Of a stretch of 64,000 bases of DNA, positions 25,482-39,225 are shown piece by piece. The position numbers and the translations under genes are program-made. Positions within the stretch are counted from its first letter, which is position 1; every line of letters begins with the position of its first letter. The stretch covers positions 62,001 to 126,000 of the forward strand of contig JASCNX010000006.1 in the NCBI GenBank assembly GCA_029968055.1, in the 5' to 3' direction. Origin of the DNA: Xenophilus aerolatus (GTDB lineage: Bacteria > Pseudomonadota > Gammaproteobacteria > Burkholderiales > Burkholderiaceae_C). Under the pieces are notes generated by a model. It made no database searches. It was given only the letters and a program-made list of their open reading frames with translations, and was not told the origin of the DNA.

Positions 25482-25578
25482 ACCTTAGTGCGCCCCGCAC
25501 CGGCCTACCGTCCTACCGGAACAGGACAACGCTTGTCCTCGCCGCATACGACATCGCGCGGCAACTCCCACCGATACG
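25482..25578. promoter_or_regulatory. Divergent promoter with two lux-box-like operators (copy A)
   Basis: Two 20-bp elements of the form TGTCST-N8-ASGACA lie between the divergent Bug and DUF3237 genes. Site 1 is CGTCCT-N8-AGGACA (25509-25528), site 2 TGTCCT-N8-ACGACA (25534-25553). A leftward -10-like TAAGGT (25482-25487, minus strand) lies 21 nt from site 1, and a rightward GATACG (25573-25578) 19 nt from site 2. Good -35 hexamers are absent, as expected if an activator bound over the -35 region recruits polymerase. The same layout recurs at 30.7 and 39.1 kb. Confidence 0.6.
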
Positions 25579-25586
25579 CTTGCCGC

Positions 25587-26096
25587 ATGACGAACGACGA
25601 CGCCCCTCGCGAACCCGATCAACACCCGCTCCAGCCGCGTTTCGAATTCGCCTTCGAGACCACGCTCACGCTGGCGCCGCGGCTGGTCCTGCAGGACCCG
25701 CCCTCGGGCGGCGCCCGCATGTCGGTCCCGGTGCTCGACGGCCGCTTCGAAGGGCCAAGGCTGCGCGGGCGCGTCCTCGCCCACGGCGGCGAATTCCCGC
25801 ATGTGCGCACCGACGGCGTCTTCTGCTTCGACGCCCGCTACTTCATGCAGGAAGACGACGGCACCCTGATCTACATCCAGAACCGCGGCTTCCGGCACGG
25901 TCCGCCGGACGTGATGGAAACCCTGCTGAAGCTGCCACCGGGCATGGAGGTCGATCCGCGCAGCTACTACCTGCGTTGCACGCCCACCTTCGAGACCCCG
26001 CCCGGCAAGCACGACTGGCTGACGCGGCATATCTTCATCGGCGTCGGTGCCCGGCTGCAGACCGGCAACGTCATCCGGTACTACCAGGTGCTGTGA
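25587..26096 (+). CDS. DUF3237 domain protein (first copy)
   Basis: A 169-aa DUF3237 (UPF0311-type) protein, probably a cytoplasmic beta-barrel. Family segments include LRGRVLAHGGEFPHVRTDGV, YIQNRGFRHGPPDVM and KHDWLTRHIFIGVGARL. It is homologous to the second copy at 39259. Its stop overlaps the GTG start of the feruloyl-CoA-synthase-like gene, so the two are very likely made together. Some family members are annotated near aromatic catabolism, but no activity is established; a role in handling an aromatic or acyl intermediate is inference. Confidence 0.82.
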   Translation: MTNDDAPREPDQHPLQPRFEFAFETTLTLAPRLVLQDPPSGGARMSVPVLDGRFEGPRLRGRVLAHGGEFPHVRTDGVFCFDARYFMQEDDGTLIYIQNRGFRHGPPDVMETLLKLPPGMEVDPRSYYLRCTPTFETPPGKHDWLTRHIFIGVGARLQTGNVIRYYQVL

Positions 26097-27976
26097 CAAG
26101 TCGGGCACCCGCGAGCGCGTCGCACGCGCCGTACCGCGACATTCCGCTTGGCAGTCGCTGCGTCGAGGTCGATCGGCGCGGGGACGGCAGCATCCTGGTG
26201 CGCGCCACCGAAGCGCTCGGTCCGCATGCCGGCCGGCTCACGGACGTTCTGGAAGCCCACGCCCGGACGCATCCCGAGCGCGTGTTCCTGGCCAGTCGCG
26301 ACCCGGCCACGGGCGCCTGGCGCACGCTGCGCTATGCCGAGGCCTGGCACGACGTGCAGCGCATCGCGCAGGCGCTGGTGGAGCGCGGTCTCGGACCCGA
26401 ACGCCCAGTCGCGATCCTGTCCGAGAGCGGCATCGAACATGCATTGCTCGCCCTTGCCGCGCTGCATGTCGGCATCCCCTACTGCGCGGTCACGCCCGCC
26501 TATTCGCTGCTGTCTGCAGACCATGCGAAGCTCGGCCACGTGCTGGGGCTGCTCCAGCCCGGCCTCGTGTTCGCAGACGACGCTGCCGCCTTCGAGACGG
26601 CGATCGAACGCGCAGCACCGCCGCAGGCGGAAGTCGTGCACGTGCAGCGCGCCTGCGCCCGGCGTTCGAGCACGCCGTGGTCCGCGTTGCTCGAACGTGA
26701 ACCCACCGATGCCATGGTGCGCGCCGCCGCGCAGGTCACCCCCGACTCGGTGGCCAAGGTCCTCTTCACGTCGGGCTCGACCGGCATGCCCAAGGGCGTG
26801 ATCAACACGCAGCGCATGCTGGCCTGCAACCAGCAGATGATGGTGCAGGCGTTTCCTGCGATCGGCGTCGAACCGCTGATCATCCTCAGCTGGCTGCCCT
26901 GGCACCACACCTCGGGCGGCAACCAGATGCTGGGCCTGACCCTGCACTGCGCGGGGACTTTGTATCTCGACGACGGCAGGCCGGTACCGGGCGAAGTCGA
27001 ACGCACGGTGCGAAACCTGCGCGAGGTCGCGCCGACCGTGTACTTCAGCGTGCCGCGCGGCTTCGCCATGCTGCTGCCCTTCCTTCGCGCCGACGACGCG
27101 TTGCGCGACCGCTTTTTCTCGCGGCTTCGCATGCTCTATTACTCCGGCGCGGCCTTGAACCCCTCGCTCGCGCGGGAGTTGGCCGAACTCTCGGTGGCAG
27201 CCTGTGGCGTGCGCACGCCGATGATGTCGGGCTACGGCGCGACCGAGACGGCGCCCGCCGCCCTGGCGGCCAACTGGCTCACGGAGCGCAGCGGGCTGGC
27301 CGGCCTGCCGATCCCCGGCTGCGAGCTCAAGCTCGTGCCCCTCGCGCCCGGCCGATTCGAGGCGCGCCTGCGCGGGCCGAACGTCACGCCCGGCTACTGG
27401 GCCCAGCCCGAGGCCGACGCTCGCCTCTTCGACGACGAAGGCTTTGCCCGGCTCGGCGATGCGCTGTCGTGGGTCGCACCGGACGACCCCCAGCAGGGCT
27501 TGGCGTTCGAGGGCCGCATCGCGGAGGACTTCAAGCTCAGCACAGGCACCTGGGTCAGCGTGGGCGGACTGCGGGCGGCGCTTCTTCAGGCCGGCGACGG
27601 CCTGTTCCTGGATGCCGTGATGGCCGGTGAAGGCCAGGACGAGGTCGGCGCTTTCATCGTCGCCGACCGTGCCGCCGCCGCAGCCTGCTGCGAGGCGGAC
27701 CCCGAGCTGTCCTGGCCCGCGCTGCTGTCGCATCCCGCGTTCAAGCAGCGCGTGCAGTCCGCCGTCGACGCCCTGGCGGCACGTGGCACGGGAAGCTCGA
27801 CCTTCGTCGGGCGCGCCTTGGTGCTCGAGGAGCCGCCCTCGGCCGCCGCCGGCGAGCTGACGGACAAGGGCTCGGTCAACCAGCGCGCATTTCTTGCCAA
27901 CCGCGCCCCGCTGGTGAGTGCCCTGTTCGCGATGCCGCCCGGTCCCGGGGTGGTCGTCGCCCGGCGGGCGACCTGA
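26093..27976 (+). CDS. Feruloyl-CoA synthase-like acyl-CoA ligase
   Basis: A 627-aa ANL-superfamily adenylating enzyme. It has the P-loop LFTSGSTGMPKGVINT near residue 225, LSWLPWHHTSGGNQMLGL, MMSGYGATETAP near residue 380 and the C-terminal LSTGTWVSVGGLR, which is typical of feruloyl-CoA synthases and marks them off from other acyl-CoA ligases. It would activate ferulate or a related hydroxycinnamate with ATP and CoA. The GTG at 26093 overlaps the DUF3237 stop (GTGA) and gives the family length. No vanillin dehydrogenase is in the window. Confidence 0.85.
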   Translation: MTSRAPASASHAPYRDIPLGSRCVEVDRRGDGSILVRATEALGPHAGRLTDVLEAHARTHPERVFLASRDPATGAWRTLRYAEAWHDVQRIAQALVERGLGPERPVAILSESGIEHALLALAALHVGIPYCAVTPAYSLLSADHAKLGHVLGLLQPGLVFADDAAAFETAIERAAPPQAEVVHVQRACARRSSTPWSALLEREPTDAMVRAAAQVTPDSVAKVLFTSGSTGMPKGVINTQRMLACNQQMMVQAFPAIGVEPLIILSWLPWHHTSGGNQMLGLTLHCAGTLYLDDGRPVPGEVERTVRNLREVAPTVYFSVPRGFAMLLPFLRADDALRDRFFSRLRMLYYSGAALNPSLARELAELSVAACGVRTPMMSGYGATETAPAALAANWLTERSGLAGLPIPGCELKLVPLAPGRFEARLRGPNVTPGYWAQPEADARLFDDEGFARLGDALSWVAPDDPQQGLAFEGRIAEDFKLSTGTWVSVGGLRAALLQAGDGLFLDAVMAGEGQDEVGAFIVADRAAAAACCEADPELSWPALLSHPAFKQRVQSAVDALAARGTGSSTFVGRALVLEEPPSAAAGELTDKGSVNQRAFLANRAPLVSALFAMPPGPGVVVARRAT

Positions 27977-28111
27977 GCGCCTGAGGCCGTCCTTGCAGCC
28001 TTGCCGCCCGAACATCGGCCGGCGGAGCGCCCTTCCCACACAGCAACGCCTTCTCTCTGAAGGCGGATCGGGTTTGCCCTAGCCCATGCGACCGCCCCTC
28101 GATTTATCGTT

Positions 28112-28136
28112 AACCAGGTTTACAGTAAACCCAGTT
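28112..28136. promoter_or_regulatory. 25-bp palindrome upstream of the LuxR-MarR gene pair
   Basis: The core GGTTTACAGTAAACC (28117-28131) is a perfect palindrome with 7-bp arms around one base. It extends to 25 bp with two mismatched pairs and a symmetric AAC/GTT edge. It lies 52 nt before the luxR-type start, inside the 211-nt gap after the ligase gene. It differs in sequence from the TGTCST-N8-ASGACA sites, so a second regulator, probably the MarR protein at 29075, is the likely ligand. Confidence 0.6.
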
Positions 28137-28187
28137 CACGAACTGCATCGCGCTCGGAGCGCATGCCCCTGCACAAGGAGACAACCC

Positions 28188-29057
28188 GTGCATTTCCAGC
28201 TGATCGAACATTCCGCGCCTCGGCGACTCGTGGACGCAGCAGCGGTCGCGGGCCTGATCGACGTGATCGGTTCACCCGATCCGGAAGCTTTCGCGGCACG
28301 CCTGCTGGAGGCTGTCAGGCCGCTGCTGCATGCCTGCGAGTGCACGGTGTTCGCGCACGAAGCCCAGCGTCCGCCGCGCTTCCTGTCCGCAGCATCCGAC
28401 CAGGGGCCGTGGGATGCGACGCGGCGAGCCGCCATCCATGCGCGCGAATTCGACGGGCAGGACGAGCTTCAGCCGGTGATCGAACGCAGGCCTGCGGCCG
28501 GCGAGGTCGGCGCGGTGTTCATCTGCCATCAGCCGCTGCACGACATGCGGCCCAACCGGCTGCGCAGCGACTGCCTGGAGTCGGCCGGCCTGACCGATCG
28601 GCTGACGGTGCTGGCGCGGGTGGGCGAGGCCGAATGGCTGGCCGCCCACCTCTATCGGAATGGCGAGACCGGCCCGTTCGGGCCCGACGACGTCGAGGCC
28701 GGCGCCAGCATCGCGCGCCTGGTCGCCGGCTGCATGGCGCGCCACCATCTGAGCGACCCGACCGGGGTCGGCACCCTGCGCGGTCGGGTCAGCGAAGGCG
28801 TCCGCGAGTTCGGCGATCGGCTGACTGATCGCGAGCGCGAGGTGCTGACGCGCATCCTGGACGGCGTCACCGTCAACCGTATCGCCGAAGACCTCAAACT
28901 GCGGCCGACGACGGTCGCGACCTATCGCCTGCGCGCCTACGAGAAGCTGGGCGTCACGTCGCGGCAGGAACTGTTCGCCGCGATACTGAAGCGACGCGCA
29001 GTCGCACCGGAGCGGCTGCGCCCGGGCCGTGCGACGTCGCTCGCGCACGCTGCCTGA
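28188..29057 (+). CDS. LuxR-family transcriptional regulator
   Basis: A 289-aa regulator with a C-terminal LuxR/FixJ helix-turn-helix (residues about 217-275: LTDREREVLTRILDGVTVNR, then LRPTTVATYRLRAYEKLGV). The N-terminal 200 residues look like a GAF-type sensor region without homoserine-lactone signature residues, so a catabolic ligand is more likely than a quorum signal. I chose the GTG at 28188, which has an AAGGAG seven bases upstream; longer frames cross the palindrome. It is the leading candidate to bind the paired 20-bp elements in this island. Confidence 0.85.
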   Translation: MHFQLIEHSAPRRLVDAAAVAGLIDVIGSPDPEAFAARLLEAVRPLLHACECTVFAHEAQRPPRFLSAASDQGPWDATRRAAIHAREFDGQDELQPVIERRPAAGEVGAVFICHQPLHDMRPNRLRSDCLESAGLTDRLTVLARVGEAEWLAAHLYRNGETGPFGPDDVEAGASIARLVAGCMARHHLSDPTGVGTLRGRVSEGVREFGDRLTDREREVLTRILDGVTVNRIAEDLKLRPTTVATYRLRAYEKLGVTSRQELFAAILKRRAVAPERLRPGRATSLAHAA

Positions 29058-29074
29058 CGCCAACGGAGCCATGC

Positions 29075-29629
29075 TTGAAGGACCACACCATCGCAGCTCG
29101 GACACCCGCGGCGCCGCACGCCCAGGCGACGCCACCACGTGGCGGCAGCGCCCGCCTGGGTCACGGTGGCGTGATCGATCCGCACACCTACGCCGCTCCC
29201 GGCCTGCTCAACACCGACCCGATGCATGCCTACCTCGGCTACCTGGTACGGCGGCTCGACAACAAAATCTACGAGAGCTTCATCGAAGAACTCGGCGGCG
29301 AGGACATCACGCCATCGCGCTTCACGGCGCTGTCGATCATCGGCCACAACCCGGGCGCGCGGCAGGTGGACGTCGCGCGTGCGCTGGAGGTCGCGCGGCC
29401 CGCTGCGCTGAAAGTGGTGAACCACCTGATCGCGCTCGGGCTCGTCGAGGCCCATTCCATCCCGTCGGACAAACGCATCGGCGCCCTCGCCCTCACCGCG
29501 CTCGGCCATGCCAAGCTGGCCGACTACGAGCAGGCGGTGCATCGCCACGAGCAGCGCGTCTTCCGCGCCTTGGACCCGTGCGAGCGCGGCGAACTCGCCC
29601 GCCTGCTCGACAAGCTGCTGGCGGACTGA
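29075..29629 (+). CDS. MarR-family transcriptional regulator
   Basis: A winged-helix MarR regulator: ITPSRFTALSIIGHNPGARQ, VDVARALEVARPAALKVVNH as recognition helix region, then HSIPSDKRIGALALTALGHA as the wing. Read from TTG 29075 (GGAG eight bases upstream) it has 184 aa, including a roughly 45-residue N-terminal stretch that may not be translated; an in-frame GTG at 29171 is an alternative start. It follows the luxR-type gene by 17 nt. MarR proteins often repress hydroxycinnamate catabolism in response to CoA thioesters, which fits the cluster. Confidence 0.82.
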   Translation: MKDHTIAARTPAAPHAQATPPRGGSARLGHGGVIDPHTYAAPGLLNTDPMHAYLGYLVRRLDNKIYESFIEELGGEDITPSRFTALSIIGHNPGARQVDVARALEVARPAALKVVNHLIALGLVEAHSIPSDKRIGALALTALGHAKLADYEQAVHRHEQRVFRALDPCERGELARLLDKLLAD

Positions 29630-29675
29630 ACAGGCGCGCGGACGCCGCGCCCACGCGCCAAGGCGCAGCGCCGCT

Positions 29676-30656
29676 TCAGTTGCCCTTGATGCCCAGCGCC
29701 TCCACCACCTGCTGCAGTGCCGCGCCATCCTGGCGCGCCTGCTGGAGGAATTCTTCGGGCGAGGCCGACGGCGCCGGCTCGTAGCCCTGCTGCTGCAGCT
29801 TGGCCTGCACGACGGGGTCGGCCAGGGCCCGCGCGCTGGCGTCGAAAAGCTTGCGCAGCACGTCCTTCGGAAGATGGGCGGGTCCCGCCAACGCGAACCA
29901 GTAACCCACGTCGAAGCCGCGCAGTCCCAGTTCCGACAGGGTCGGCACGTCCGGCGCCAGCGCCGAGCGCTGGGCGGCCGTGATGGCCAGTGCCTGCAGC
30001 TTGCCGTCCCGCACCATCGGCATCACCGAGCTCGGCACCGCGAAGGTGGCCGGCACCTCGCCCGCGACCACCGCAAGCACCGCCGGTGCACCGCCCTTGT
30101 ACGGCACCTGGCTCAGCTTCACGCCGGACTGGCGTGCGAACTTCTCCAGGATCAACGCCGGATAGGGTCCTTGCGTGGAGGCGACGAACAGGCCGCCTTC
30201 GGTGGCACGCGCCTTGGCCAGCAACTGCTCGAAGCCGCCTGCGCCGACGGCGGGGTTCACGGCCAGCACGAAGAAGGTTCGGGCCCACTTGCTCACGGGG
30301 GTGAAGCTCGCGCCGTCGTATTTCACGAGCGCGGGCCACATGGCCTTGTCGGCGCCGAACACCGAGTCCGGCGCCAGCGCCAGGGTATAGCCGTCGGGCG
30401 CGGCGGCCGCCACGGCAGCAGGTGCCAGCGTGGTTCCGGCGCCGGGCTTGTTGTCCACGATGACCGGCTGCCCGAGCGTTCGGCCCAGATGCTCGGCCAT
30501 GATGCGCGCCACGGCATCGCCCCCGCCGCCCGGCGCGAAACCCACCATCAGGCGGATCGGCTTGTTGGGATAGGCGCCCTGTGCCGCAGCGGCGCAGGAC
30601 AGTGCCAGCAGACCCGCGCCGAACGCGCGCCGGGTCCAGGGATGCGAGGAATTCAT
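29676..30656 (-). CDS. Bug-family TTT substrate-binding protein (second)
   Basis: A 326-aa periplasmic Bug receptor: signal peptide with twin Arg (MNSSHPWTRRAFGAGLLALS, cut near AAAQ), IRLMVGFAPGGGGDAVARIM, VIVDNKPGAGTTLAPAAVA, SQVPYKGGAPAVLAVVAGEV and LAPDVPTLSELGL. It is closer in detail to the third receptor at 38101 (FAPGGG, ADKA.., YKGGAPA, ASPEEF/ASPEDF endings) than to the one at 24452. It is transcribed away from the thiolase operon and no membrane partner is nearby. Confidence 0.9.
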   Translation of the reverse strand: MNSSHPWTRRAFGAGLLALSCAAAAQGAYPNKPIRLMVGFAPGGGGDAVARIMAEHLGRTLGQPVIVDNKPGAGTTLAPAAVAAAAPDGYTLALAPDSVFGADKAMWPALVKYDGASFTPVSKWARTFFVLAVNPAVGAGGFEQLLAKARATEGGLFVASTQGPYPALILEKFARQSGVKLSQVPYKGGAPAVLAVVAGEVPATFAVPSSVMPMVRDGKLQALAITAAQRSALAPDVPTLSELGLRGFDVGYWFALAGPAHLPKDVLRKLFDASARALADPVVQAKLQQQGYEPAPSASPEEFLQQARQDGAALQQVVEALGIKGN

Positions 30657-30722
30657 GATGTGTCTCCGGTGGTCGGCCGCAGCCCCGGGGCAGGATCCGC
30701 CGGTGGTGGTCGCCGTCGGATC

Positions 30723-30816
30723 ATTCTGGTGGCGCGCACGCGCACGGCCTGTCCTTCGAGAACACGACGTGTCCTAGTTGCAAACGACAGCCGGGACGGG
30801 CTCTATTTCCTATCGT
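30723..30816. promoter_or_regulatory. Divergent promoter with two lux-box-like operators (copy B)
   Basis: Two abutting 20-bp elements: site 1 TGTCCT-N8-ACGACG (30750-30769) and site 2 TGTCCT-N8-ACGACA (30770-30789). A leftward -10-like CAGAAT (30723-30728, minus strand) lies 21 nt from site 1, and a rightward TATCGT (30811-30816) 21 nt from site 2. From the end of site 2 to the thiolase ATG there are 33 nt, the same distance as in copy A to its ATG. Confidence 0.6.
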
Positions 30817-30822
30817 GCCGGC

Positions 30823-32031
30823 ATGACCGATGCCTTCATCTACGACGCCGTGCGCACGCCGCGCGGCGCCGGTCGATCCACCGGATCGCTGCACACCCTC
30901 TCACCCATCGACCTCGGTGCCGCCGTCCTCCTTGCGCTGCGCGAGCGCACGGGCTTCGACCGCCATGCCGTCGAGGACGTGATCTTCGGCGTGGGCGACG
31001 GGGTGGACGACCAGGGCGCCAACCTCGCCCGCTCGGCCGCCCTGCATGCAGGGCTGGACGAATCGATCCCCGGTTGCACCGTCAGCCGCTTCTGCGCATC
31101 GGGCCTGGATGCGGTGAACATGGCCGCGGCACGCGTCGCCGCCGGCCATGGCGAACTGCTGGTGGCCGGCGGCGTGGAAATGATGTCGCTCATTCCCATT
31201 GCCGGCACGGGCGGCCCGTGGGGCACCGACCCGGCCTTCAACACGACCTCCAACTTCACGCCCCTGGGCGTGGCCGCCGATCTGCTCGGTACGCTCGAAG
31301 GTCACACGCGGCAGCAGGTGGACGCATTCGCGGCCGAATCGCAGGCGCGCGCCGCGACGGCCTGGTCCGAAGGACGCTTCGCGAGGTCGATCGTGCCTGT
31401 GCGCGACGTCAACGGTGCGCTGTGCCTGGATCGCGACGAGCACATGCGCCCGGGCACCACGGCCGAGGCGCTCGCGAAGCTTCGGCCGGCCTTCGCCGAC
31501 CTGGCCCTCAAGGGCGGCTTCGGCGAGACGGTCAAGCGCCGGTACCCGGAGGTCGACACCCTTCGGCATCTGCACACGGGCGGCAATTCCTCGGGCGTCG
31601 TCGACGGCGCCAGCGCGCTGCTCATCGGTTCGCGCGAGGCGGGCAGGAAGCTCGGCCTTTCGCCGCGCGCACGCATCAGCGCCGCCGCCACCACGGCCTG
31701 CGACCCCTGCCTGATGCTGGTCGCGCCCGCGACCGCTGCGCGCAATGCGGCACAGCGGCGCGGCATGTCGCTCGCGGACATCGACCTGTTCGAGGTCAAC
31801 GAAGCCTTCGCGTCGGTGGTGCTGCGGTTCATGCGCGAGACCGGCGTGCCGCACGACCGGGTCAACGTCAACGGCGGCGCGATCGCCATGGGCCATCCCA
31901 TCGGCGCCACCGGCGGCATCCTGGTGGGCACGCTGCTCGACGAGATGGAGCGGCGCGACGCCCGCACCGGGATCGTGACGCTGTGTGCCGGGCTCGGCCT
32001 GGGCGTGGCGACCCTCATCGAACGCACCTGA
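30823..32031 (+). CDS. Acetyl-CoA acyltransferase (thiolase)
   Basis: A 402-aa thiolase that cleaves 3-ketoacyl-CoA with CoA. The nucleophile Cys91 sits in TVSRFCASGLDAVNMA; the second active-site region GGAIAMGHPIGATGG and the terminal TLCAGLGLG are intact, as is DLFEVNEAFA. The ATG at 30823 gives the standard start MTDAFIYDAVRTPRG. It heads a compact rightward operon of six genes ending at 38055, driven by promoter copy B. Confidence 0.93.
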   Translation: MTDAFIYDAVRTPRGAGRSTGSLHTLSPIDLGAAVLLALRERTGFDRHAVEDVIFGVGDGVDDQGANLARSAALHAGLDESIPGCTVSRFCASGLDAVNMAAARVAAGHGELLVAGGVEMMSLIPIAGTGGPWGTDPAFNTTSNFTPLGVAADLLGTLEGHTRQQVDAFAAESQARAATAWSEGRFARSIVPVRDVNGALCLDRDEHMRPGTTAEALAKLRPAFADLALKGGFGETVKRRYPEVDTLRHLHTGGNSSGVVDGASALLIGSREAGRKLGLSPRARISAAATTACDPCLMLVAPATAARNAAQRRGMSLADIDLFEVNEAFASVVLRFMRETGVPHDRVNVNGGAIAMGHPIGATGGILVGTLLDEMERRDARTGIVTLCAGLGLGVATLIERT

Positions 32032-32050
32032 ACCCCGGGAGCCACCCACC

Positions 32051-34159
32051 ATGATCAGACAACAGGACCTTGGCGACGGCGTGATCGCGCTGATGTACGG
32101 CTCGGACAAGGCCGTGAACACACTGGACGCCGCGCTCAACGAGGAACTCGCGGAACGCAGCGCCGCCCTGATGGCCGACGGGTCCGTCAAGGGCATCGTC
32201 GTCGGCTCGGACAAGGACGACTTCATCGCCGGCGGCGATCTGCAGGAGCTGATGCGTGCGCGCGACCCGGACGCCGTACGCGCCATCGTCGCACCCTTCC
32301 TGCAGGCGCTGCGTCGCCTGGAGACGGGCGGCAAGCCGGTCGTGGCCGCGCTCACGGGCACCGCGCTGGGCGGCGGGCTCGAACTCGCGCTGGCCTGCCA
32401 CCACCGCATCGCGGCACAGAACCCTGGCGCGCGCGTGGGATTTCCCGAGGCCACGCTGGGGCTGATGCCCGGGGCCGGCGGCACACAGCGGCTGCCGCGC
32501 CGGATCGGCATCGCGGCCGCGGCGCCCCTGCTGCTGGAGGGCCGCCGCATCACCTTCGAGCAGGCGCACGAGCTCGGCCTCGTCGACGAGATCGTGCCTG
32601 CAGGCGAACTGCTCACCCGCGCCAAGGCCTGGGCGCTGGCGCATCCCGACGCCTCGCAGCCCTGGGACCGCAAGGGCTTCACGGTGCCCGGCTTCGGCGT
32701 CCAGTCGCCGGCGGGCCGCCAGTTCTTCGCGGGCGCCTGGGCGCGCATGCGCAAGACGGCGGGCGGCACCGACGAAGCGGCACAAGCCATCCTGCAGGTG
32801 CTGCACCAAGGGCTACAGCGCGGGCTGGATGCGGGCATCGCGATCGAGACCAGGCACTTCGCGCGGCTGGCGGCCGGCGCTTCCGCACGTCAGCGCGTGC
32901 GCACCCTCTTCACCGGCGTCAACCGCGCGCGCGCCATGAAGGCGCGTCCCCAAGCCGTGCCGGCGTCGCAGGTCGGGCACCTGGGCGTGGTCGGCGGCGG
33001 CGTAATGGGCCGCGGCATCGCCCACATCGCGGCACTGGCCGGCGTGCGCGTCACGCTGATGGATGTGGACGAGGCCGCGGGCCGGCGGGCGATCGAGGCG
33101 ATCCGCGGCAATGCGATGCGCGAGGCGGAACGCGGCCGGCTCCGGATGCCGGTCGACACGCTGATGGATCGCATTGCCCTGGCGACGCAGGACGGCGCCC
33201 TGCGTGATGTGGACTTCGTGGTCGAGGCGGTCTTCGAGAACGCGGCGTTGAAGCAGTCGGTGCTGCAGCGCATGGCGCGCGTCGTGCGCGACGACGTGCC
33301 CCTGGCCAGCAACACGTCGACCCTGCCCATCGGCGGGCTGTCCACAGACCTGCCGAACCCGGCCCGCGCGATCGGCCTGCACTTCTTCTCGCCGGTGGAC
33401 CGCATGCCGCTGGTCGAGGTGGTACGTGCCGCGCAGACCGACGACGCGACCCTGGCGCGCGCACTCGACTTCATGAAGCAGTTGGGCAAGACGCCGGTCG
33501 TCGTGCGCGACGGCCTGGGTTTCTACACCAGTCGCATCGTCACCACCTATTCGAGCGAGACGCTCAACCTGGTCGGCGAGGGCGTGCCGCCGCAGTGGAT
33601 CGACAACGCGGCGGTGGGCGCCGGCTTCGCGCTGGGTGCGGCCTCGCTCGCGGAGCTCACCACGCTGCCGCTGCTGCGCGACATCCTGCAGTCGATGCGC
33701 GGCGACGGGCGCCGTATCGCGAACGCCGGCAACGTGGCCGAGGAGACGGTCGCGCAGCTGCTGGCGCTGGGCCGCGTGGGCAAGGCCGCGGGCGGCGGCC
33801 TGTACGACTACGGGCCCGAGGGCCGCACCGCCTGGCCCGGCCTGGCCACGCATTTCCCTCAGCGAGAGCCGCCCGAGCTCGAGACGATCCGGCGCCGGCT
33901 TCTGCACGTGCAGTCGCTGGAGGCGGTGCGCTGCCTGGACGACGGCATCCTGGACGATCCGCTGGACGGCGACGTGGCCGCCGTGCTCGGCTGGGGCTAC
34001 CCCAGCCACCTGGGAGGCCCTTTCGCCTACATCGACCGCCTCGGGGCCGCGCGTTTGTGCAGCGAGTCCGACGACTTGGCGCGCCGCTACGGCGCGCGCT
34101 TCGACGTGCCCGCCCGCCTGCGCCGCATGGCCGATGCCGGCGAGACCTTCCACACTTGA
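32051..34159 (+). CDS. Bifunctional enoyl-CoA hydratase / 3-hydroxyacyl-CoA dehydrogenase
   Basis: A 702-aa FadB/FadJ-type enzyme for hydration and NAD-dependent oxidation in beta-oxidation. Residues 1-290 form a crotonase unit with DDFIAGGDLQEL, GTALGGGLELALACH and FPEATLGLMPGAGGTQRLPR, which keeps both Glu of active hydratases. The NAD-binding motif LGVVGGGVMGRGIAHIAALA is near residue 310, with ASNTSTLPIGGL and LHFFSPVDRMPLVEVV following. A GGGAG lies ten bases upstream of the ATG. It is second in the thiolase operon. Confidence 0.92.
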   Translation: MIRQQDLGDGVIALMYGSDKAVNTLDAALNEELAERSAALMADGSVKGIVVGSDKDDFIAGGDLQELMRARDPDAVRAIVAPFLQALRRLETGGKPVVAALTGTALGGGLELALACHHRIAAQNPGARVGFPEATLGLMPGAGGTQRLPRRIGIAAAAPLLLEGRRITFEQAHELGLVDEIVPAGELLTRAKAWALAHPDASQPWDRKGFTVPGFGVQSPAGRQFFAGAWARMRKTAGGTDEAAQAILQVLHQGLQRGLDAGIAIETRHFARLAAGASARQRVRTLFTGVNRARAMKARPQAVPASQVGHLGVVGGGVMGRGIAHIAALAGVRVTLMDVDEAAGRRAIEAIRGNAMREAERGRLRMPVDTLMDRIALATQDGALRDVDFVVEAVFENAALKQSVLQRMARVVRDDVPLASNTSTLPIGGLSTDLPNPARAIGLHFFSPVDRMPLVEVVRAAQTDDATLARALDFMKQLGKTPVVVRDGLGFYTSRIVTTYSSETLNLVGEGVPPQWIDNAAVGAGFALGAASLAELTTLPLLRDILQSMRGDGRRIANAGNVAEETVAQLLALGRVGKAAGGGLYDYGPEGRTAWPGLATHFPQREPPELETIRRRLLHVQSLEAVRCLDDGILDDPLDGDVAAVLGWGYPSHLGGPFAYIDRLGAARLCSESDDLARRYGARFDVPARLRRMADAGETFHT

Positions 34160-34183
34160 CCGATTCTTCGAGGAATTTCAGCA

Positions 34184-35197
34184 ATGAGAGCAATGGTGAT
34201 GGCAGCGCCGGGGTTGGAGAACCTCCGCATCGAGGAACGGCCCGATCCGCGCCCCGGCCCGGGGCAGGTGCTCGTGCGCCTGCGCGCGGCCTCGCTCAAC
34301 TTCCGCGATGTGCTCGCGCTGCGCGGCGGCTACGGCTCGCGCCAGAAGCAGGCCGGCCTGGTGCCGCTGTCCGACGGCGCGGGCGAGGTGCTGGAGGTCG
34401 GCAGCGGCGTCACGCGCTTCAAGGCCGGCGACCGGGTGGTGAACACGTTCTTTCCCGGCTGGCTGGCGGGCCCGCCCGCCGAAGCCTTTCTCGAGGAGGA
34501 CGTGGGCGGCCTGCATGACGGTGTGGCCTGCGAGATGCGGCTGTTCTCCCAGGAAGGCCTGCTGCCGATCCCCGCGGGCATGGACTTCCTGCAGGCGGCC
34601 ACCCTGCCTTGTGCCGCCGTCACCGCATGGAACGCCGTGCGCGCGCATGGCGGTGTCGGGCCGGAGCATGTCGTGCTGACGCAGGGTTCCGGCGGCGTGG
34701 CGATCTTCGCGCTGCAGTTCGCCAAGGCCGCCGGCGCCCGCGCGATCGCGATCTCTTCGAGCGACGACAAGCTCGCGCGCCTGGCGGCACTCGGCGCCGA
34801 CGACGGCATCAACTACCGCAGCGATGCCGAATGGGGCAAGACCGCGCGCAAGCGCACGCAGGGCCGCGGCGTCGACCTGGTGGTGGAGACGGCGGGCGCG
34901 GCCACGCTCAAGCAGTCGATGCGCGCCGTGTCGCTCGGCGGCATGATCGCCGTCATCGGGATGGTCGGCGGCCCGGTCGCCGAGGTTCAGTTGCCGCTCG
35001 TGGCGATGGGCAGCCTGCGCCTGCACGGCATCGCCGTCGGCAGCCGCCGGCACCTGCAGGAGGTTCTGCAGGCTTGCGCGCAGCACCGCATCGAGCCGGT
35101 GATCGACCGCGTGTTCCCCCTGGCGGAGCTGCCCGAGGCAATCGGCCACGTGGCCAGCGGCCAGCAGTTCGGCAAAGTCTGCATCGAGATCGGCTGA
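34184..35197 (+). CDS. MDR-superfamily NAD(P)-dependent oxidoreductase
   Basis: A 337-aa medium-chain dehydrogenase/reductase of the quinone-oxidoreductase-like, zinc-free type. It has an N-terminal GroES-like domain (LRAASLNFRDVLALRGGYG, VPLSDGAGEVLEVGSGVTRF) without the catalytic Cys/His zinc ligands, and a Rossmann domain with VLTQGSGGVAIFALQFAKAA near residue 165. It could reduce an enoyl-CoA or oxidise an alcohol in the pathway. A GAGGA ribosome site precedes the ATG; it lies 24 nt after the bifunctional enzyme. Confidence 0.87.
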   Translation: MRAMVMAAPGLENLRIEERPDPRPGPGQVLVRLRAASLNFRDVLALRGGYGSRQKQAGLVPLSDGAGEVLEVGSGVTRFKAGDRVVNTFFPGWLAGPPAEAFLEEDVGGLHDGVACEMRLFSQEGLLPIPAGMDFLQAATLPCAAVTAWNAVRAHGGVGPEHVVLTQGSGGVAIFALQFAKAAGARAIAISSSDDKLARLAALGADDGINYRSDAEWGKTARKRTQGRGVDLVVETAGAATLKQSMRAVSLGGMIAVIGMVGGPVAEVQLPLVAMGSLRLHGIAVGSRRHLQEVLQACAQHRIEPVIDRVFPLAELPEAIGHVASGQQFGKVCIEIG

Positions 35198-35202
35198 GGT
35201 CC

Positions 35203-35997
35203 ATGCTCGAGCTGCAGACCACCGGCGCCGTCGCCACGCTCACCCTCGACCGGCCCGAGGTGCTGAACGCCCTGAGCGGCGAACTCATCGCCGCGCTGCT
35301 GCAGCGCCTCGCCCAGCTGAGCTCGGACGACACCGTGCGTGCCATCGTCCTCACGGGCCGCGGGCGCGCCTTCTGCGCCGGCGCCGACCTGTCCGACCCG
35401 ATGATGAACACGCAGGCACCGCCCGACGTGCGCGCCGAACGCTTCCTCGCCAGTGCGGACGCCGGCATCCATGCGCTGGCACGCGCGCTGGCCGGCCTGC
35501 GCAAGCCACTGGTGGCGGCCGTCAACGGCGCCGCCGTGGGCGGCGGCGCCGCGCTCGCACTGTCGGCGCACGTGACGCTCGCCGCGGAAACGGCCTACCT
35601 GCAGCAGCCCTTCACGGCGCAGCTCGGGCTGGCGCCCGACATGGGCGCGAGCTGGCAACTGATGCGCCGGCTCGGTCCGGGGCGCGCTCTGCCGCTCGCC
35701 ATGCTCGGCGAACGCCTCGGCGCGCGCGAAGCGGCCGACTGGGGCCTGATCTGGCGCTGCGTGCCGGACGGCGAACTCGCGGCGGCGGCGGCCGACGTCG
35801 CCGGCCGCCTTGCCGCGGGCGCGCCAGCCGCGCTTGCGGCCCTGCCCGCCCTCATGGCCGACGCACTGACGAACGGACTGGACGCGCAGCTCGACCGCGA
35901 GCGGGACGCGCAGGCCGCCCTCGTCCGGACCCAGGACTTCATCGAGGCCGTGACGGCCTTTCGCGAGAAACGCAAACCGCGGTTCTGCGGACACTGA
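35203..35997 (+). CDS. Enoyl-CoA hydratase/isomerase family protein
   Basis: A 264-aa crotonase with GRAFCAGADLSDP near residue 60 and NGAAVGGGAALALSAHV near residue 105 (oxyanion hole). The usual second Glu position reads QLGLAPDMGASWQLMRRLG, with Asp in place of the second acid, a pattern common in PaaG-like isomerases. It starts 5 nt after the MDR gene stop, so it is cotranscribed. The reaction on the pathway substrate is not determined by sequence alone. Confidence 0.88.
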   Translation: MLELQTTGAVATLTLDRPEVLNALSGELIAALLQRLAQLSSDDTVRAIVLTGRGRAFCAGADLSDPMMNTQAPPDVRAERFLASADAGIHALARALAGLRKPLVAAVNGAAVGGGAALALSAHVTLAAETAYLQQPFTAQLGLAPDMGASWQLMRRLGPGRALPLAMLGERLGAREAADWGLIWRCVPDGELAAAAADVAGRLAAGAPAALAALPALMADALTNGLDAQLDRERDAQAALVRTQDFIEAVTAFREKRKPRFCGH

Positions 35998-36023
35998 CTC
36001 CCCCTGCCCTTCGAGGAGCCCAC

Positions 36024-37583
36024 TTGAACGAACGACTCACCCAGACATTGCGCCGGGCGGCGCAGTCGAACCCGAACGGCATGGCCACCGTCGACGGCGA
36101 CCGGCGCCGGACCTGGCGCGAGGTGGAAGCGCGCGTCGCACGCGCGGCCGGCGGCCTGCGCGCCCTGGGCGTGGCCGAGGGCGCGCGCGTCGCGATCCTC
36201 TCGCTCAACAGCGACCGCTACCTGGAGGCCTACTACGCCATCGCCTGGGCCGGCGGCGTGATGCTGCCGCTGAACACCCGGTTGACCACCGACGACGTGA
36301 TCTACATGCTCGGCGACGCCGAGGCCTCCGTGCTGTGCGTGGACGCGTCCTTCCTGCCGCTGGTAGCGCAGGTGCGCGAGCGCTGCCCACTGCTGCGCCA
36401 CGTCGTCTTTCTGGGAGACACCGGCGCCCAGCCCGCCGGAGCGATGCCCTGGGACGCCCTGGCCGCCGGCGAGCTGCTGGACGATGCCTGCGCCGCGGGC
36501 GACGCACTGGCCGGCATCTTCTACACGGGCGGGAGCACCGGCCGGCCCAAGGGCGTGATGCTGTCGCATGCCAACCTGGTGTCGAACGCGGTGAACGCCG
36601 TCTACATGATCGGCTACCAGCCCGACTGCGTGTTCCTGCACGCGGCGCCGATGTGCCACCTGACCGACGGCATGTCCACGGTGGCGCTGACCATGGCCGG
36701 CGGCACGCACGTGTTCACCCCGAAGTTCGATGCACGCGAGGCGCTGCGGCAGGTCGAGCTGCACCGCGTCACCCATCTCACGCTGGTGCCCACCATGATC
36801 GCGATGCTGCTCGAGGTCGAGGGCATCGAGCGGATGAAGCTCGACAGCCTGCGCCAGTTCATGTTCGGCTCGGCGCCGATGCCCGACGCAACGCTGCACC
36901 AGGCCGTCGCGATCTGGCCCGGGATGCTGTTCCTGCACGGCTGGGGCATGACCGAGCTCGCGCCGATCGGCACCATGCTGCCGCTGGCCATGCGCAGGCC
37001 GGCGGTGGCCGGCGACCGGCTGCGCTCGTGCGGGCAGGCCATGCCGAACCTGGACTTGCGCATCGTCGATGCGGAGGGCCGCGAGGTGCCGCGCGGCACC
37101 ACCGGACAGATCGTCGTGCGCGGCCCGACCGTCATGCTCGGCTACTGGCGCCGTCCGCAGGAGAGCGCCGCAGCGCTGCGCGACGGCTGGCTGCAGACCG
37201 GCGACGCCGCGGTGATGGACGAGGACGGCTATGTCTACATCGTCGACCGGTTGAAGGACATGATCATCAGCGGCGGCGAGAACATCTATTCGACCGAGGT
37301 GGAGAACGCGATCTCGCTGATGCCCGGCGTGGCCGAAGTGGCGGTGATCGGCATCCCCGACGACAAGTGGGGCGAGCGCGTGCATGCCATCGTCGTCCCG
37401 CGCGAGGGCGCGCAGCTGGACGAGCCCGCGGTGCAGGCCTGGGCGCGTGCCCGCATCGCGGGCTACAAGGTGCCGCGCAGCGTGCAGGTCCGGCGCGAGC
37501 GCCTGCCGCTGTCGGGTGCCGGCAAGGTGCTCAAGAGCGAACTGCGTGCGCCCTTCTGGCGTGCGCACGAGCGCAGCATCTGA
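36024..37583 (+). CDS. Class I adenylate-forming acyl-CoA ligase
   Basis: A 519-aa long-chain/aryl acyl-CoA synthetase-type enzyme. Motifs: A3 P-loop FYTGGSTGRPKGVMLSH near residue 170, HGWGMTELAPIGTMLP near residue 310, LQTGDAAVMDEDGYVYIVDR, DMIISGGENIYSTEVENAI, and the C-terminal lysine in PLSGAGKVLKSELR. The start is a TTG at 36024 with GAGGAG seven bases upstream. It is the second CoA ligase of the island and probably activates a different acid from the enzyme at 26093. Confidence 0.9.
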   Translation: MNERLTQTLRRAAQSNPNGMATVDGDRRRTWREVEARVARAAGGLRALGVAEGARVAILSLNSDRYLEAYYAIAWAGGVMLPLNTRLTTDDVIYMLGDAEASVLCVDASFLPLVAQVRERCPLLRHVVFLGDTGAQPAGAMPWDALAAGELLDDACAAGDALAGIFYTGGSTGRPKGVMLSHANLVSNAVNAVYMIGYQPDCVFLHAAPMCHLTDGMSTVALTMAGGTHVFTPKFDAREALRQVELHRVTHLTLVPTMIAMLLEVEGIERMKLDSLRQFMFGSAPMPDATLHQAVAIWPGMLFLHGWGMTELAPIGTMLPLAMRRPAVAGDRLRSCGQAMPNLDLRIVDAEGREVPRGTTGQIVVRGPTVMLGYWRRPQESAAALRDGWLQTGDAAVMDEDGYVYIVDRLKDMIISGGENIYSTEVENAISLMPGVAEVAVIGIPDDKWGERVHAIVVPREGAQLDEPAVQAWARARIAGYKVPRSVQVRRERLPLSGAGKVLKSELRAPFWRAHERSI

Positions 37584-37584
37584 A

Positions 37585-38055
37585 ATGCGCACGGTGGGTG
37601 CACGGCCACCCAATGCCGACCAGCTGCGGATCCTCGACTTCCTGCGCCATCCGACGGTGCCCGCACCCGTGGACACCAACCCCGTGGCACGCGCGCTCGC
37701 CGCCGTCCTGCTGGACTGGGACGCGCATGCGCGCTGCCTCACCGTGGGTTTCACCGCATCGGCGGAACACCTGCAGGGCAACGGCGCCGTGCACGGCGGC
37801 GTGCTGGCGACGATGCTGGACTTCGGTGTGGCCTTTGCGACGCTGGCCTGCCTGGCGCCGCCGCGCGTCGCCGTGACCGCGACGCTGCACCTGCAGTACG
37901 AGCGCGCCCTGCACGCGCCGGCCGCGGTGCGCGTGAAGGCCCGCGTCGACCGGCTGGGCGGGCGCATGGCCTTCGCCTCGGCGCTGCTCGTGGGCGAGGA
38001 CGCGCCCGAGGACGTGATCGCGCGTGCGAGTGCCAGCCTCGCGCTCACCGCCTGA
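37585..38055 (+). CDS. PaaI-type hotdog thioesterase
   Basis: A 156-aa hotdog-fold thioesterase: LQGNGAVHGGVLATMLDFGV near residue 60 is the active-site helix region, followed by VTATLHLQYERALHAP and RLGGRMAFASALL. Such enzymes release CoA from stalled aryl-CoA intermediates. It starts one base after the ligase stop and ends the thiolase operon. Confidence 0.87.
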   Translation: MRTVGARPPNADQLRILDFLRHPTVPAPVDTNPVARALAAVLLDWDAHARCLTVGFTASAEHLQGNGAVHGGVLATMLDFGVAFATLACLAPPRVAVTATLHLQYERALHAPAAVRVKARVDRLGGRMAFASALLVGEDAPEDVIARASASLALTA

Positions 38056-38100
38056 CTGCGCTGCGCACAGCCCGGCAGGCGAGCGCACCGCAGCCGCTCG

Positions 38101-39075
38101 CTACTGGGGCTTGATGCCCGCCTGCTCCACGCGAAGGCGCAGCGCTTCGCCTTCGCGCAGCGAGGTCGCCTTGAAGTCTTCGGGCGACGCGGAGGGTTCT
38201 GCCTCGAAGCCGAGCGCCTGCATCCGCTGCTGCACGGCGGGATCCTTCAACGCGGACGCCGCCGCATCGAACAGCTTGCGCGAAACGTCCGCCGGCAGTC
38301 CCGCCGGTCCGACCAGGCCGTACCAGTAGCTCAGCGCGACGCCGGGCAGCCCCGACTCGGCCAGCGTCGGCAATTCGCCCGTGAGGCCCGAGCGCCGGTC
38401 CTTGGTGATCGCCACGGCGGTGAGCTTGTCCTCCTTCGCCAGTGGAAGCAGGGCGGCAGGCCCCATCAGCGTGAGTGGCGCCTCGCCGCTCACCACGGCC
38501 ATGGCGGCCGGCGCGCCGCCCTTGTACAGCACCTCCTCCAGGCCGACACCGGCCACCCGCTGCACGTCGGCCGCGAAAATCCTCAGGTTGGCACCGCCCG
38601 GGGAAGCCAGGAACAGCGGCTTGCCGCTGCCCCGGCCCGCGCGCAAGAGGTCCTCGACGCTGCGGATGCCCGACTGCCGGCTGGCCGCCAGCACGAAGAA
38701 CGAGCTGGCCACCTTGGAGATCGGCGTGAAGTTCGCCCCGTCGTACTTCACGGTGCCGTACAGGGCCTTGTCGGCACCGAACGCAGCGTCGAGGACCAGC
38801 AGCAGCGTGTAGCCGTCCGGTGCCGCACCGGCGACGTAGGCGGACGCCAGCGTGGTGTTGGCGCCTGGCCGGTTCTCGACCACCACCGCCTGCCCGAGCG
38901 AACGCGTCATGCTGTCGGCCAGCACGCGCGCGATGCCGTCTGCCCCACCGCCCGGCGCGAAGCCGACCACCAGGCGCACCGGCCGCGACGGGTAAGGATC
39001 GGCTGCGCGGCCGACGGGAGCGTGGAAGGCGATGACAGCGGCGAGCAAGGCCCCGAGCAGTGGCTTCATGCGCAT
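38101..39075 (-). CDS. Bug-family TTT substrate-binding protein (third)
   Basis: A 324-aa periplasmic Bug receptor: signal peptide MRMKPLLGALLAAVIAFHAP cut near GRAAD, VRLVVGFAPGGGADGIARVL, VVVENRPGANTTLASAYVAG, EEVLYKGGAPAAMAVVSGEA and GELPTLAESGLPG. The ATG at 39075 has GGAGA eight bases upstream; the longer upstream reading is antisense to the DUF3237 gene. It faces the end of the thiolase operon and is divergent from the second DUF3237 gene, mirroring the arrangement at 24.5-26.1 kb. Confidence 0.9.
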   Translation of the reverse strand: MRMKPLLGALLAAVIAFHAPVGRAADPYPSRPVRLVVGFAPGGGADGIARVLADSMTRSLGQAVVVENRPGANTTLASAYVAGAAPDGYTLLLVLDAAFGADKALYGTVKYDGANFTPISKVASSFFVLAASRQSGIRSVEDLLRAGRGSGKPLFLASPGGANLRIFAADVQRVAGVGLEEVLYKGGAPAAMAVVSGEAPLTLMGPAALLPLAKEDKLTAVAITKDRRSGLTGELPTLAESGLPGVALSYWYGLVGPAGLPADVSRKLFDAAASALKDPAVQQRMQALGFEAEPSASPEDFKATSLREGEALRLRVEQAGIKPQ

Positions 39076-39107
39076 GCGTGTGTCTCCGTGTTGGTCGATG
39101 CGAAGCC

Positions 39108-39225
39108 ATTGTGTGGAGGGCATGCGCCCGCCGATGTCGTCGCCGAATACGACAGGCGCCGGGCCGGCGCATGCCGGGCTGTCGTCTTCGCCTACGACAG
39201 CGGCGCGGCATCGCGGCGCTAAGCT
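39108..39225. promoter_or_regulatory. Divergent promoter with two lux-box-like operators (copy C)
   Basis: Two 20-bp elements: site 1 TGTCGT-N8-ACGACA (39135-39154) and site 2 TGTCGT-N8-ACGACA (39180-39199), both with perfect arms; at site 2 the arms extend to GCTGTCGT/ACGACAGC. A leftward -10-like CACAAT (39108-39113, minus strand) lies 21 nt from site 1, and a rightward TAAGCT (39220-39225) 20 nt from site 2. This is the clearest copy of the element. Confidence 0.65.

Follow-up and report, generated by a model that had tools for sequence, protein, structure and literature searches.

Which protein controls the three divergent promoter regions of a catabolic gene cluster in Xenophilus aerolatus, and in what way? 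The cluster lies in a 64,000-nucleotide (nt) stretch of contig JASCNX010000006.1 (hereafter the window), where each of three divergent gaps contains two copies of the 20-base-pair (bp) dyad TGTCST-N8-ASGACA, six in all and none with more than one mismatch (Table 1), and where a luxR gene is followed directly at its 3' end by a marR gene that an earlier, sequence-only reading of this DNA had missed. We consider it very probable that a LuxR dimer occupies these boxes and acts as a class II activator governed by a ligand other than an N-acyl-homoserine lactone (AHL), and that MarR works through a separate element. In this mechanism, a 20-bp box centered near -43 covers the -35 region at each of six promoters, and the LuxR dimer would bind it and recruit RNA polymerase where the -35 hexamer is poor. 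One box per direction would yield two separately activated promoters in each divergent pair. Our best reading of the predicted regulon is three Bug receptor genes, two DUF3237 transcripts and a coenzyme A (CoA)/beta-oxidation operon.

The exact pattern is confined to the three gaps. In the 5.1-Mb source genome it occurs four times, always within them, and its backward version, used as a control, does not occur at all. Looser patterns are less informative: at up to one mismatch the genome has 35 sites versus 31 for the backward control, so that one-mismatch sites weigh little without promoter context. Widening the regulon to the 29 one-mismatch sites outside the gaps was rejected, as a -10-like hexamer (score >3) stands 19-22 nt from just two of them; a measure of open reading frames fails to separate these outside sites, and long chance frames overlie the window sites too. 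The TGTCST pattern at up to three mismatches was likewise discarded as a site finder: it gives 71 matches in the window versus 48.9 +/- 6.7 in shuffles, so these loose matches are mostly noise. The sequence-only reading had placed all six sites exactly and had named the flanking genes correctly (TctC/Bug genes to the left; a DUF3237-ligase pair, a thiolase operon and a DUF3237 gene to the right), and it had allowed one or two mismatches in the weakest sites, where we find one mismatch in two sites and two in none.

A -10-like hexamer begins 21 nt from the box at five of the window sites and 20 nt from it at the sixth, the box centers lie at -43.5 (five) or -42.5 (one) from the predicted transcription starts and overlap the -35 region, and the -35 hexamers are poor at all six promoters. 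By prediction, this is the class II arrangement, a dyad box over the -35 region with its center near -42.5. For a broader view, 18 sites were picked for lying in gaps with at most two mismatches, in the window and in the corresponding clusters of two other genomes (G272 and G399), and were scored with approximate Escherichia coli sigma-70 -10 frequencies. The mean -10 score reaches its maximum of 1.1 at 21 nt (next offset, -3.0), and none of 5000 random shifts gave a higher peak (p=0.0002); the sequence TAnnnT stands 20-21 nt from the box at 10 of the 18 sites, where 0.04 would be expected. Taken alone, the 12 sites outside the window also peak at 21 nt (p=0.0002), and the peak falls there again among 45 distinct sites (51 before the removal of copies) from distant LuxR loci and a pattern scan. 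The proposed class II position near -42 over the -35 region agrees with the predicted centers and with the 21-nt peak over the 18 sites.

The same arrangement recurs in the two other genomes, beside luxR genes whose products are 57-58% identical to the window LuxR. In the whole genome of G272, which belongs to the same family and another genus, the exact pattern occurs twice, each time no more than 7 kb from luxR; in that of G399, which includes locus L016, it occurs three times, always within 23 kb of luxR. The backward pattern is absent from both. Sixteen of the 18 gap sites form eight pairs in divergent gaps (three in the window, two in G272, three in G399), and the remaining two are single sites before luxR, one in G272 and one in L016. 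The genes flanking the pairs are mostly conserved and are not always of the Bug type: one G272 gap has an enoyl-CoA hydratase gene instead. Two of the G399 pairs stand beside a branched-chain-type transporter gene and a porin-like gene (L059, 1094-1242 and 12957-13042), names that come from reading the open frames by eye without a family search; the regulon of G399 may therefore be larger. Scanning related genomes, as the sequence-only reading had proposed, thus recovered the box pairs, most of the flanking genes and the 21-nt spacing. Its expectation that the motif would be enriched only in these and functionally linked promoters fits the exact pattern in the three genomes, where every match lies within 23 kb of luxR; the motif is nevertheless not confined to this system, as a close variant marks part of a wider group of LuxR proteins.

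That wider group was examined through relatives of the window LuxR (E 1e-15 or better), which are found in 52 of 399 genomes of the family including the source, mostly near 30% identity; an order-level search found matches in 9 of 399 genomes, including four that lie outside the family. When contigs were scanned with the LuxR protein, L016 was the one real relative, and five other matches covered the helix-turn-helix (HTH) region. In 28 distant LuxR loci (L024-L051), the variant TGTCVT-N8-ABGACA has 19 hits at up to one mismatch in 16 loci and 10 exact hits in nine loci, whereas six scrambled patterns give 0-1 hits each, and 12 of the 28 luxR genes have the variant within 260 bp upstream. On a LuxR tree, the motif label requires five changes versus 11.4 in shuffles, none of 500 being as low, with L016 scored as lacking the motif since its site has two mismatches. 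A further pattern, TGTCMTC-N6-GAKGACA, occurs in 48 of 399 family genomes versus 2 of 399 for its backward control. Judged from these sequence counts, the box variant is a mark of part of a wider LuxR group.

The strongest competing explanation, which we regard as improbable, is that the box binder is MarR, a CouR-like protein, which would keep the six promoters repressed until a CoA thioester of the pathway releases it. marR lies directly 3' of luxR in all three clusters; CouR, its nearest relative of solved structure, has its box over the -35 region of the cou promoters (PMC4737184); and a box in that position would suit a repressor too. However, the CouR box given there, cATTGA-N5-TCAATg, is shorter than TGTC-N12-GACA, the poor -35 hexamers speak for activation, and a separate element is present only at the luxR-marR promoter. 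The variant box is absent from all 28 distant MarR loci, exactly or at up to one mismatch, although 13 of them contain Bug genes, whereas it is present in 16 of 28 distant LuxR loci, in which no MarR match was seen; MarR is therefore probably not the box binder and was rejected as the main reading, even though the comparison is partly circular because TGTCVT-N8-ABGACA was widened after the distant LuxR sites had been viewed. The comparative evidence, from two genomes and from distant luxR versus MarR loci, favors the LuxR-controlled regulon with class II boxes that the sequence-only reading had proposed.

Besides this circularity, several observations weigh against assigning the boxes to LuxR. 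The -10 spacing given by the sequence-only reading stands in part: hexamers lie 20-21 nt away at all six window promoters with poor -35 hexamers, yet the top-scoring hexamer within 10-39 nt is at that distance in just four of the six, better-scoring ones lying at 24 nt for Bug2 and 12 nt for the thiolase. Two of the six chosen hexamers begin with CA, and over the 18 sites the top hexamer is at 20-21 nt in 12 and elsewhere in six. L016's own luxR gap holds just a two-mismatch site, and 17 more matches at one or two mismatches, elsewhere in the same loci, were not counted among the 18. The distant relatives have a related rather than identical box (TGTCMTCC...), and 16 of the 28 distant loci lack a box at up to one mismatch in the 260 bp before luxR. 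As a check on the circularity, a motif-free dyad search covering 300 bp upstream of each of 33 distant luxR genes found TGTC-N12-GACA in nine, where 0.1 were expected, but the largest shuffled count of any dyad was also nine (for other, GC-rich words), the shuffles keep only base composition per 50-bp block, and some of the 33 genes are close kin. Finally, 30 loci with TGTCMTC-N6-GAKGACA comprise 16 with a LuxR relative (two of them by a short HTH match only) and 14 with none in the 1.5-kb flanks; this pattern therefore also occurs away from LuxR.

These 14 loci bear on a second alternative, to which we give still less weight, namely that the boxes are bound by a regulator whose gene lies elsewhere in the genome, the adjoining luxR being incidental. 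Regulators need not be linked to their targets, but every exact genome-wide match in the three genomes lies within 23 kb of luxR, and in 13 of the 48 genomes that carry the related pattern, a LuxR relative lies no more than 2 kb from a hit (two listings compared by eye). Chance occurrence in a GC-rich genome, suggested by the similar counts at up to one mismatch, can be practically dismissed, as it is already contradicted by the four exact matches versus none backward and by the conservation of positions and spacing in other genomes.

Two further sets of related sites were noted. One genome has four near-identical palindromic TGTC...GACA sites (G085:C11:358864 and G085:C20:17791, 20572 and 23993); at the one locus examined, L061, the flanks contain no LuxR relative. 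The sequence TGTCCTCGGCCTTGATGACA is identical in six genomes (G007, G030, G036, G156, G306 and G357); four of its loci (L074, L087, L088 and L089) have no LuxR relative, and it is possibly a conserved coding stretch.

The LuxR protein itself combines a DNA-binding domain with a predicted sensor domain. Its GerE domain (PF00196) scores 54 bits versus a cut-off of 23.5 and is found in all 32 relatives of set A1. The AHL-binding domain PF03472 has no match in the window LuxR, where only GerE and Sigma70_r4_2 appear at E up to 10, and it is not among the matches listed (25 of 27 families) for the 32 relatives, two of which match GAF_2 weakly. In an AlphaFold2 model (mean predicted local distance difference test score, 88.9), the top structural matches are of the TraR, QscR and SdiA type. 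The N-terminal domain gives its best template modeling (TM) score among the matches listed with the ligand domain of VqsR (5xhx; TM 0.73 by target length, 4.1 Å), the next matches to the sensor being PAS-GAF phytochromes (E 3e-4 and worse), and a family profile matches the VqsR domain weakly in sequence (residues 16-192, E 5e-4). The best reading of the model is therefore a LuxR/VqsR-like sensor fold, and since this fold comes without the AHL-domain signature, the ligand is most likely not an AHL; LuxR would probably sense a Bug-imported substrate or a pathway product. No luxI adjoins luxR; the sole PF00765 match in the genome, a luxI-like AHL synthase gene (G000:C2:352678-353151; L145), sits on contig C2 and not on C6, which makes an AHL ligand unlikely.

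MarR is probably a second regulator, separate from the box binder. An AT-rich repeat before luxR-marR (GTTAACCAGGTTTACAGTAAAC in the window) is common to the window and L016, with a looser version in L057 (G272), and GTTAACNNGGTTTACNGTAAAC is found nowhere else in the source genome at up to three mismatches. The repeat is a better candidate MarR operator than the boxes, and MarR would repress the luxR-marR promoter through it, resulting in a two-step switch.

The gene content of the cluster points to the likely substrate. The DUF3237-domain protein PinX shares 42% and 38% identity with PhcG and PhcF, respectively, and all three are decarboxylases of lignin-dimer catabolism (PMC12607616; also PMC12997858). 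These DUF3237 relatives support, without proving, a plant-derived aromatic acid as the probable substrate of the cluster; the label 'phenylpropanoid' in the sequence-only reading is still inferred from gene content.

Several of the predicted transcripts would be leaderless. Among 45 promoter sides with a -10 hexamer at 20-21 nt scoring at least 2 (other sides were dropped), an ATG begins 5-7 nt past the hexamer in 11, at 6 nt in seven of these, whereas any other single distance accounts for at most five. The cases in the window are DUF3237a and the thiolase (Table 1), and further ones are predicted in L016, L057, L059, L030, L034, L044, L050, L071 and L083. In the orthologous thiolases of G272 and L016 the ATG lies at 65-71 nt instead, so the predicted trait recurs yet is not fixed.

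Table 1. Features of the gene cluster, in window coordinates; -10-like hexamers and transcription starts are predictions.
Feature	Start	End	Strand	Remarks
Bug1 (TctC receptor)	24452	25465	-	
-10-like hexamer TAAGGT	25482	25487	-	21 nt from box
LuxR-type box, 1 mismatch	25509	25528	-	upstream of Bug1
LuxR-type box, exact	25534	25553	+	upstream of DUF3237a-ligase
-10-like hexamer TACGCT	25575	25580	+	predicted start on ATG at 25587, leaderless
DUF3237a	25587	26096	+	
AMP-binding CoA ligase	26096	27976	+	resembles PRK12582 but scores under its cut-off; region scanned, start codon not fixed
AT-rich repeat GTTAAC-GGTTTAC-GTAAACC	28109	28142	+	before luxR-marR; candidate MarR operator
luxR	28188	29057	+	C-terminal GerE HTH; presumed box binder
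marR	29075	29629	+	TTG 29075 or ATG 29222 as start; CouR (6c28) is the closest relative of solved structure
Bug2 (TctC receptor)	29676	30656	-	
-10-like hexamer CAGAAT	30723	30728	-	21 nt from box
LuxR-type box, 1 mismatch	30750	30769	-	upstream of Bug2
LuxR-type box, exact	30770	30789	+	upstream of thiolase operon
-10-like hexamer TATCGT	30811	30816	+	predicted start on ATG at 30823, leaderless
Thiolase	30823	32031	+	first gene of operon
FadJ-like fusion	32057	34159	+	region scanned
Zinc-type quinone/acryloyl-CoA reductase family	34184	35197	+	
Enoyl-CoA hydratase/isomerase	35239	35997	+	region scanned
Acyl-CoA ligase	36024	37583	+	
4HBT thioesterase	37582	38055	+	region scanned
Bug3 (TctC receptor)	38101	39078	-	region scanned
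-10-like hexamer CACAAT	39108	39113	-	21 nt from box
LuxR-type box, exact	39135	39154	-	upstream of Bug3
LuxR-type box, exact	39180	39199	+	upstream of DUF3237b
-10-like hexamer TAAGCT	39220	39225	+	20 nt from box
DUF3237b	39259	39744	+	

The lux box consists of two 6-bp arms of the ACCTGT type around 8 bp and occupies the class II position near -42.5. The window box is likewise a 20-bp dyad with 6-bp arms around 8 bp near this position, but its arms are of the TGTC type and its predicted targets catabolic. As in the quorum-sensing proteins LuxR, TraR and QscR and in LuxR solos, the window LuxR has a GerE domain and a two-domain fold; unlike them, it has no PF03472 match and no adjoining luxI. 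Its likeness to VqsR is confined to the sensor domain: the gene context differs, and no common ligand is claimed. The neighboring MarR is, among solved structures, most like CouR-type repressors of p-hydroxycinnamate catabolism, but unlike CouR/MarR operators the boxes do not follow MarR relatives. DUF3237 is common to the PhcF/PhcG/PinX systems and to the window, which has two predicted DUF3237 target genes; those pathways belong to Novosphingobium and Sphingobium, and LuxR is absent from the main texts of PMC12607616 and PMC12997858. Because the solo survey PMC10134790 defined solos by PF03472, the window LuxR group would fall outside it. In the open-licence literature, six papers mention DUF3237 and none combines it with LuxR, and looking up LuxR together with tripartite/Bug receptors, hydroxycinnamate or motif terms brought up nothing on this system (including passages of PMC5911999 and PMC10134790). 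Within that literature, the statement of the sequence-only reading that no such system had been described agrees with our search: the kind of system is known, and this group, box and layout were not found described.

On balance, we lean toward seeing in these proteins a LuxR subfamily not yet described, which would belong to one large bacterial family and the order around it. Its sensor would have the LuxR/VqsR fold but have left the AHL-domain family, and through a TGTC-N12-GACA box fixed 21 nt from the -10 hexamer it would run Bug uptake and DUF3237-decarboxylase genes, often with leaderless mRNAs for the enzymes and leadered ones for the receptors. Such a subfamily would supply a DNA code and a promoter geometry for a LuxR group that solo surveys based on PF03472 would miss, and would tie this group to uptake receptors and DUF3237 decarboxylases. 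Related bacteria have very large numbers of Bug receptors, most of them, to our knowledge, lacking a known ligand; the box can predict regulons, and hence substrates, for them.

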